From an uncultured Porphyromonadaceae bacterium (GTDB taxonomy: Bacteria > Bacteroidota > Bacteroidia > Bacteroidales > Muribaculaceae): a DNA stretch of 64,000 nt. The translations under genes were made by a program, and so were the position numbers. Each line of letters begins with the position of its first letter. Position 1 is the first letter of the stretch. The stretch lies in assembly GCA_947073495.1 (NCBI GenBank), contig CAMTMX010000001.1, positions 38,812-102,811 of the forward strand, written 5' to 3'. Positions 3,606-64,000 of the stretch are shown piece after piece. The notes beneath the pieces are model-generated. The model had not been told where the DNA came from. It did no database searches and saw only the letters and a list, made by a program, of their open reading frames with translations.

Positions 3606-3662
3606 ATTCAACTTTCGCAAGCGAAAGTTGAGGGTTATAAGGTTAAGTGAACTTGCTTAAAT
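3606..3662 (+). repeat. Dispersed palindrome-headed intergenic element, copy A (internally deleted)
   Basis: ATTCAACTTTCGCAAGCGAAAGTTGAGGGTTATAAGGTTAAGTGAACTTGCTTAAAT; shares both ends with copies B and C. Confidence 0.7.
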
Positions 3663-6479: not shown

Positions 6480-6625
6480 ATTTAAGTTTCGCAAGCTCAC
6501 TTAAGATTTGAAGGTTAAGGGGTTATATTTACACATGATCCTTAAAAGGAACCTGAACTCTATCCACAATTGTAGATTAACCTTTTAACCTCATAACCCT
6601 CAACTTTCGCATGCGAAAGTTGAAT
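6480..6625 (-). repeat. Dispersed palindrome-headed intergenic element, copy B (full-length form)
   Basis: Minus-strand ATTCAACTTTCGCATGCGAAAGTTGAGGGTTATGAGGTTAAAAGGTTAATC...ATTGTGGATAG...CTTAAGTGAGCTTGCGAAACTTAAAT; aligns end to end with copy C. Confidence 0.75.
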
Positions 6626-6628
6626 TAT

Positions 6629-8026
6629 TTATATTATTTCAGATTCTATCGTTCCCTTGTGCAGACAGGTGGAGATCCTCGTGCCGCTCGATAATGAGGC
6701 GGCATCGGTGACAGCCTTCCCGTTCACACGTGTTATTGAATACCCCCTTTTGAGGGTGTTTTCAGGACTTAGGATTCCTATCATCCCTTCGAGACTCTCA
6801 AGTTTTGCGGTGTGACGCTTCATAGTCGAATCAGCCGCCATAGATAATCTTGCAGACAACTCATCCAGTCGATCTGCCGATCTTTCACAAGTTTTTGGAG
6901 CCAGTGTCTGCAAAAGCTGTCTAAACATCTCCACCTTTCCATTCGCCTGGGCGATCCTGGCTGAGACGATGGCGGGGATACGGGAAATTTCCCTCTCAAG
7001 CAAAGACCTCGCCGAAGCTATTCTTGTCTCGGCAAGTGCAGGAATCAAAGCTTCGCAATTTGAAAGCCTTCTCATCTCTCCGGAAATTCGATCATTGACA
7101 TAGCGGGTAATCGTATCAACAAGCTCCCCGGTCTTATTATAAGCGTTTCTTAAAGAATCCACAAAAAACGCCGCCACCGCCGTAGGTGTCTTCAATCGAG
7201 TGTGGGCGATCTCATCGAGCACCGTTCGGTCGCGTTCATGACCTATACCCACCACTATCGGAAGGGGAAACACCGCCACTTCCCTTGCAAGCTCATAATC
7301 ATCAAAGCCATTAAGGTCGGTTGTTGCGCCACCACCCCTGAGAATTGCCACGCAATCCCACAAGTCAATTGTCTGTTCCACAAACTTCAAAGCCTCTCTC
7401 ACGGAGAGTGATGTACGTTCCCCCTGCATTATAGCCGGCACGAGGAAGGGATAAAAAATAAAACCTTCCTGATTTGACATAAGATGATTCATGAAATCAC
7501 CATAACCTGCCGCACCTGCCGCAGAGATTACGGCTATCCGCTGTGGAGCCACAGGCATCGCCTTCAACCTGTTTAATCCGAGCACACCTTCATTATGGAG
7601 CTTCATAAGAATCTCCCGCCTGAGACGCTCCATGTCTCCGAGAGTGTATGACGGATCTATATCATTGACAGTAAATGACAATCCGTATAGCTGATGATGA
7701 TTTGCAGTGCCATTGAGCATCACCTTCAGACCGGTCATTATGTCCCGACCGGTTGCCGCATAAAATTTTTGACGAATATATTGAAACCGGGATTGCCAGA
7801 TAGTCGCCCTAAGCTTCGCTACAGTTTGTCCGGATTGATTTTTTTCAATCAACTCCATATAACAGTGTCCTCCATTGACACGGACATCGCTGAGTTCTGC
7901 AATGACCCAAGCCCCCTGCAATACAGGAGACCGTCTGACTGCGTCTCCGATGGCTGTCGTATATTGAGAAAGCGTCATCGGTGCAGGAGTGGCACCAAAC
8001 AAATTCTGAGAGGTCATTTCTTTCAC
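6629..8026 (-). CDS. xseA: Exodeoxyribonuclease VII large subunit
   Basis: OB-fold N-terminus (QGAWVIAELSDVRVNGGHCYMELIEK) and RIAVISAAGAAGYGDF, ILRGGGATTDLNGFDDYELAREVA motifs. Confidence 0.95.
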   Translation of the reverse strand: MKEMTSQNLFGATPAPMTLSQYTTAIGDAVRRSPVLQGAWVIAELSDVRVNGGHCYMELIEKNQSGQTVAKLRATIWQSRFQYIRQKFYAATGRDIMTGLKVMLNGTANHHQLYGLSFTVNDIDPSYTLGDMERLRREILMKLHNEGVLGLNRLKAMPVAPQRIAVISAAGAAGYGDFMNHLMSNQEGFIFYPFLVPAIMQGERTSLSVREALKFVEQTIDLWDCVAILRGGGATTDLNGFDDYELAREVAVFPLPIVVGIGHERDRTVLDEIAHTRLKTPTAVAAFFVDSLRNAYNKTGELVDTITRYVNDRISGEMRRLSNCEALIPALAETRIASARSLLEREISRIPAIVSARIAQANGKVEMFRQLLQTLAPKTCERSADRLDELSARLSMAADSTMKRHTAKLESLEGMIGILSPENTLKRGYSITRVNGKAVTDAASLSSGTRISTCLHKGTIESEII

Positions 8027-31228: not shown

Positions 31229-31389
31229 ATTCAACTTTCGCAAGCGAAAGTTGAGGGTTATGAGGTTATAGGGTTAAAAGGTTAATCCCCCATTGTGGAT
31301 AGATATCAGCGATTCTTAGAGAATGTTTGGATTTGACTTATGATTACCCTCTTAGCATTCAAACCTTAAGTAAGCTTGAGAACTTAAAT
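31229..31389 (+). repeat. Dispersed palindrome-headed intergenic element, copy C (full-length form)
   Basis: ATTCAACTTTCGCAAGCGAAAGTTGAGGGTTATGAGGTTATAGGGTTAAAAGGTTAATC...ATTGTGGATAG...CTTAAGTAAGCTTGAGAACTTAAAT. Confidence 0.75.
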
Positions 31390-31811: not shown

Positions 31812-31816
31812 TAATT

Positions 31817-31862
31817 CAGCGTTCGCTTTGCGAATGCTGAGGGTTATAGGGTTAAAAGGTTA
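31817..31862 (+). repeat. Dispersed palindrome-headed element, copy D (left end with altered stem)
   Basis: CAGCGTTCGC-TTT-GCGAATGCTG followed by AGGGTTATAGGGTTAAAAGGTTA. Confidence 0.6.
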
Positions 31863-35088: not shown

Positions 35089-35124
35089 ATACGCACAACT
35101 TTCGCTTCCGGAAGTTGTGCGTAT
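35089..35124. terminator. Long hairpin between convergent genes (possible bidirectional terminator; core resembles the palindrome family)
   Basis: CATACGCACAACTT-tcgcttccgg-AAGTTGTGCGTATG, 14-bp stem. Confidence 0.55.
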
Positions 35125-63804: not shown

Positions 63805-63840
63805 TGCATAATCTTGCAACTGAACGACATCTTGGCTTTG

Positions 63841-64000
63841 CTCAAACTGAGTTCAAACTGAATTCAAACTGGGTTCAAACTGAGTTCAAACGGGTTCAAA
63901 CTGAGTTCAAACTGAATTCAAACGGGTTCAAACTGAGTTCAAACGGGTTCAAACTGAGTTCAAACTGAATTCAAACGGGTTCAAACTGAGTTCAAACGGG
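63841..64000. repeat. Tandem array of 15 units of TTCAAACTGAG / TTCAAACTGAA / TTCAAACGGG, runs off the right edge
   Basis: Ten 11-bp and five 10-bp units tile 160 bp exactly; last 106 bp are two identical 53-bp super-units. Confidence 0.95.

Follow-up and report, generated by a model that had tools for sequence, protein, structure and literature searches.

Short non-coding MITEs of bacteria, such as RUP, Correia and NEMIS, carry inverted repeats and target duplications. By description these elements are set apart from the family analysed here, since their target duplications differ and since both tips of our family are palindromic hairpins. The nearest described element in kind, with different ends, is BrickBuilt of Porphyromonas gingivalis. 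BrickBuilt and 464/PgRS form about 10-20 dispersed copies and share with our family the occurrence in Bacteroidales, the intergenic location, the non-coding character and the placement of tandem repeats inside a MITE bounded by terminal inverted repeats (TIRs) (PMC4596501). BrickBuilt has a GAGACCTTTGCA-like TIR that matches IS5-family ISPg elements, and its 23-nt tandem unit runs in one orientation (PMC4596501), whereas the present family has the TIR ATTYAASTTTCGC and units of ~8 bp arranged in two inverted arms. An identity with BrickBuilt or another IS5-type MITE was rejected because the TIR is not GAGACCTTTGCA-like. The REP/BIME elements associated with RAYT (PMC3733652) are likewise palindromic, extragenic and multicopy, but our family has target site duplications (TSDs), lacks the GTAG or CGTC head of the 20-40 bp REP palindromes and is distributed differently from Y1 transposases. 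Finally, the intervening sequences (IVSs) of 23S rRNA, as described in Coxiella, have complementary ends that close a stem-loop, as do the elements studied here, and the coding IVSs carry a protein, IVP (PMC4990558). IVP cassettes of Bacteroidales likewise possess complementary arms. In contrast to the 23S IVSs, our elements are intergenic rather than inserted in 23S rRNA, contain no IVP gene and show TSDs.

The window analysed is a stretch of 64,000 nucleotides from the genome of an uncultured bacterium of the Muribaculaceae (assembly GCA_947073495.1, contig CAMTMX010000001.1, positions 38,812 to 102,811). A preliminary description had reported two full-length copies, B and C, of a dispersed intergenic element in this window, and the coordinates and strands given there are correct. 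The features relevant to the analysis are as follows.

6480..6625, minus strand: copy B, full-length, 146 bp, between xseA and xseB
6629 and 6462, minus strand: stop of xseA and start of xseB, bracketing copy B
6600..6625, minus strand: left terminal palindrome of B, ATTCAACTTTCGCATGCGAAAGTTGA, (nearly) invariant across the family
6480..6505, minus strand: right terminal region of B, CTTAAGTGAGCTTGCGAAACTTAAAT, inverted relative to the left end and imperfectly matching it
6626..6630, minus strand: left copy of the TSD of B, AAATA, overlapping the final bases of the xseA stop codon
6475..6479, minus strand: right copy of the TSD of B, AAATA
31229..31389, plus strand: copy C, full-length, 161 bp, without target duplication
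3606..3662, plus strand: copy A, 57 bp, internally shortened, both ends present
31814..31862, plus strand: related element, left end only, directly after a stop codon
31866..32025, no strand assigned: inverted arms of short GTTTAG-type repeats, extending the 31814 element

With C as the query the search recovered B at 75% identity (E 3.9e-21), which confirms the proposed end-to-end alignment; all motifs listed for the two copies were found, and their middle is diverged. Neither copy is overlapped by an open reading frame of listed size, in agreement with the claimed absence of coding capacity, and both genes that bracket B, xseA and xseB, were confirmed by Pfam. Copy C begins 10 bp after one gene and ends 11 bp before a lipocalin-like gene. 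The short copy A consists of the left palindrome, two GGTTA units and the right end AGTGAACTTGCTTAAAT, while in the relative at 31814 the GGTTA units come after a hairpin of different but compensated sequence (TCAGCGTTCGC TTT GCGAATGCTGA). The arms that extend it measure 77 nt each, are 71% complementary and have an undefined right end. The 22-bp palindrome was found four times in the window with up to 3 mismatches, against a chance expectation of none; its occurrence at 35096-35117 was dropped as a family member because the flanks differ. No part of the window matched Rfam at the gathering score. At the end of the window, positions 63817-63997 are occupied by tandem repeats (GGGTTCAAACTGAGTTCAAAC) that recur every 10-11 bp.

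Alignment of 21 full copies, which range from 146 to 163 bp, gave sharp edges and allowed us to define the true ends as ATTCAAC...CTTAAAT. The TIRs are imperfect (ATTCAACTTTCGC / ATTTAAGTTTCGC): the left end reads ATTCAACTTTCGCWWGCGAAAGTTGAGGGTTAT, and reading inward from the right end gives ATTTAAGTTTCGCAAGCTCACTTAAGG, which repeats it in inverted and imperfect form. The interior consists of a left arm of ~8-bp GGTTA units, a variable centre and a right arm of complementary TAACC units. The number of units differs from copy to copy, locus L048 having about seven in the left arm and six in the right. Copies from congeneric genomes conserve the ends and arms and have an unrelated centre. The size of the element and its lack of listed-size open reading frames agree with the definition of a MITE (50-1000 bp, without a transposase gene).

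The observation of a dispersed element was correct, and the family is bigger than first stated. A genome-wide search with C gave 40 scored places (92 matching pieces), and a profile search found at least 45 matches in the own genome, with similarity that runs from end to end rather than being confined to the palindrome in a few copies. By profile the congeners G005, G014 and G026 have about 40, 38 and 28 matches, respectively, and the other congeners searched have 0-9 each, all these counts being rough, as some include both strands of one element and the scoring of candidates stopped at 49. Of the 393 genomes examined in the order, 3 contain the exact right-end 17-mer. Thus the spread of the element is patchy within one genus, and the rest of the genus and the order have few copies or lack them. 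The plasmid and phage records searched do not contain the element; among viral contigs, 4 and 32 matches were returned for the end patterns of 17 bases, which is near chance by a rough estimate, and a 29-base pattern gave none. Two further loci were recorded in the course of these searches. In G037, which belongs to a different family of the order, a segment of 293 bp (L064:1501-1793) with the ends ATTTAAGTTTCGCAAGC and ATTTAAGTTTAGCAAGC adjoins an apparent DNA methyltransferase gene and an HNH-type gene; it is possibly a distant relative and has no clear TSD. In the own genome, many gene gaps of G000:C10:12000-25000 (L140) contain GGGTTA arrays with varied hairpins, among them higher-order repeats of ~60 bp.

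The flanks of the copies carry the footprint of insertion. The five bases on either side match at 85 of 105 positions, compared with 53.7 expected (z 7.8; 0 of 5000 shuffles). Among 24 copies of the own genome, 11 have exact 5-bp TSDs where 1.4 would be expected, a count that 0 of 3000 shuffles attained; two further copies have exact 6-mers, and several others show one mismatch. In congeners, where the ends are the same, 7 of 9 copies are flanked by exact repeats of 4 to 7, and the TSD length is accordingly not strictly constant (5 bp in the own genome, 4-7 bp in congeners). The target duplications are A+T-rich, and C and a few other copies have none.

At the site of copy B, the xseA-xseB gap minus the element and one target copy amounts to 15 bp, as calculated from the coordinates, and the corresponding gaps of relatives are mostly 13-75 bp, although lengths of 122, 167, 194 and 644 bp also occur. 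Among the related Muribaculaceae genomes in which xseB could be located, the element was never found in this gap, the site of B being empty there. In some relatives (L225, L216 and L219) the xseA-xseB gap or the region downstream of xseB is occupied by short tandem arrays or by inverted tandem arms of unrelated sequence, and the xseA-xseB and post-xseB gaps in Muribaculaceae seem to be repeated landing places. More generally, none of 32 tested copies was flagged inside a gene, and about ten tested copies leave a gap of at most 30 bp once the element is removed. Between co-directional genes, 15 copies called automatically, together with B, which was called by hand, agree in sense with the flanking genes and 6 are antisense, a mild orientation bias.

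Taken together, B and C probably represent a non-autonomous MITE-type family of transposable elements of Muribaculaceae. The preliminary description had left the nature of the element between a MITE, a REP-like element and a mobile structured RNA, and it is the first of these that is borne out, by the terminal inverted repeats, the 5-bp TSDs, the multicopy, non-coding and intergenic character and the patchy occurrence among congeners. As a MITE-type family it is new in sequence and unusual in two features: i) the hairpin tip is kept as a structure although its sequence differs in related copies, and ii) each arm is built from ~8-bp GGTTA units, the two arrays being inverted relative to each other. 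In the mechanism that we propose, a trans-acting enzyme would recognise the hairpin tips, cut in a staggered manner and insert the element. Copies would persist at sites that tolerate an insertion, many of them short operon gaps, because the transcript would fold into a self-contained hairpin; slippage between repeats would then lengthen and shorten the GGTTA arms.

In contrast to BrickBuilt with its match to ISPg elements, no parent insertion sequence was found for this family, and no transposase gene was found between paired ends. This absence is weak evidence, because the genome is a draft of 183 contigs, from which the parent may be missing. Candidate parents of the DDE_Tnp_1 and IS1380 types were rejected, as their genes do not have these ends in four carrier genomes. 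The genes adjoining solo ends are ordinary ones (for example SecA, GH2 beta-galactosidase, serpin, DprA and FtsX). Two solo terminal palindromes (L034:238-279 and L052:954-1003) continue into the flank and so form near-perfect palindromes of roughly 42-50 bp, as though template switching had copied one end back.

The behaviour of the tips is less easily accommodated by a MITE. In non-canonical relatives the frame AATTC[hairpin]GAGGGTTA is constant and the stem sequences are other than the canonical one. Directly upstream of the 30 non-canonical GAGGGTTA sites, a stem scoring at least 6 was present in 12 cases (against 0.65% of shuffles) and one scoring at least 9 in 8 cases (against 0.02% of shuffles). 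These values, far above those of shuffles, indicate that the tip hairpin is conserved as a structure. Compensated stem changes of this kind are not expected for a transposon end recognised purely by sequence, and they count against the MITE explanation. For the mobile structured RNA suggested earlier the evidence is divided: the RNA fold of C is moderately better than that of shuffles (z -2.6) and the hairpin is kept across subfamilies, but covariation within the canonical family is almost nil. Only one covarying pair was detected there, and therefore we draw no claim of RNA selection from the canonical family.

Both structural selection and upkeep by template switching fit the tip hairpins. 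According to the latter explanation, selection plays no part in keeping tips and arms complementary, which would instead be achieved by template switching or by conversion between the inverted repeats; we regard this as a serious candidate that falls somewhat short of an even chance. It covers the structure and not the mobility, and can coexist with the MITE explanation. It can draw on the fully palindromic solo copies, which take in flanking DNA, and on orthologous IVP cassettes of two species, in which the unit has changed from ATTAATG (G005) to ATCAATG (G012) in both arms in concert, the arms staying complementary. However, the frame AATTC[hairpin]GAGGGTTA is fixed despite the stem change, which suggests that the position of the hairpin is recognised.

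The IVP cassettes also bear on the origin of the elements. Of 34 IVP genes (PF05635) drawn from this genus and order, 27 lie between inverted arms of short tandem repeats (score of at least 24), compared with 20 of 189 control genes (Fisher p 6e-16), and mispaired flanks of different IVP genes score as armed in 10% of cases. In the literature searched, which covered few subscription papers, we found no description of arms that enclose IVP. At the Bacteroidales loci L160-L178 and L192-L211, IVP genes are mostly found within inverted arrays of 7-10 bp repeats, which often begin at the upstream stop codon and differ in unit at most loci. At L161 (G000:C118:4129-4437) the IVP gene is broken by a stop codon and CTTTGGT-type arms are still visible. 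One IVP gene of the own genome has a hairpin and a GGGTTA arm of the B/C type upstream and a canonical element downstream. It is conceivable, although in our judgement doubtful, that hairpin-closed intergenic cassettes with inverted tandem arms form a wide class in Bacteroidales, a mobile counterpart of the 23S IVSs, to which B and C belong as members without a gene; the coding members would carry the IVP/Avd-like four-helix-bundle protein, which would act in trans on the folded arms. This membership is a possibility and not a finding, because its basis is a single locus on a contig dense in the element.

A related proposal, which we consider unlikely, treats B and C as intergenic relatives of the IVSs. 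They would be RNA-centred elements whose coding form has an IVP/Avd-like gene for a four-helix bundle between complementary arms and whose gene-less forms would move via RNA and a reverse transcriptase, with RNase III excising them from operon transcripts. The frequency of arm-enclosed IVP genes, the own-genome cassette just described, the variable TSD length and the RNA fold of C are all in line with this proposal, as are the resemblance of IVP to Avd of diversity-generating retroelements (PMC10053308), a weak match between IVP and the bAvd profile, and the idea of Ralph and McClelland, as it is cited in PMC4990558, that IVSs are mobile with an ORF-encoded component. On the other hand, arms of the B/C family occur at a single IVP locus, in the element-dense contig, the arm units vary from locus to locus and are unrelated at most of them, and covariation within the family is almost nil. 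Moreover, the IVP cassettes hold the same sites across species (IVP identity is 70-85% in three species pairs with orthologous cassettes), and therefore do not appear highly mobile.

It is very improbable that the element is a structural RNA or attenuator maintained by the host in operons for regulation: the many copies in short operon gaps and the excess of same-sense copies would suit such a role, but divergent and convergent gaps also hold copies, the site of B is not common to the other species examined, many congeners lack the element, and the target duplications are evidence of insertion. An origin as REP/BIME-type elements moved by a Y1 (RAYT) transposase is hardly credible despite the terminal palindromes and three RAYT-like ORFs in the genome, since Y1 transposition leaves no target duplication, no Y1 match was obtained in the carriers G014 and G026, many congeners have Y1 yet no element, the three ORFs are not flanked by element ends and the GTAG or CGTC head was not seen, so that the REP-like part of the preliminary description is contradicted by both distribution and target duplications.

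This work describes a mobile element family, with defined ends, TSDs and copy numbers, from a family of gut bacteria that is abundant but has received little study. It also indicates that the genes of the IVP/S23p proteins have a regular genomic context, most of them being enclosed by arms in these Bacteroidales genomes; the function of these proteins has been a standing question since the intervening sequences of 23S rRNA were found. If the elements and the IVP cassettes are linked, the role of the IVP/Avd-like protein would become testable in culturable gut bacteria.
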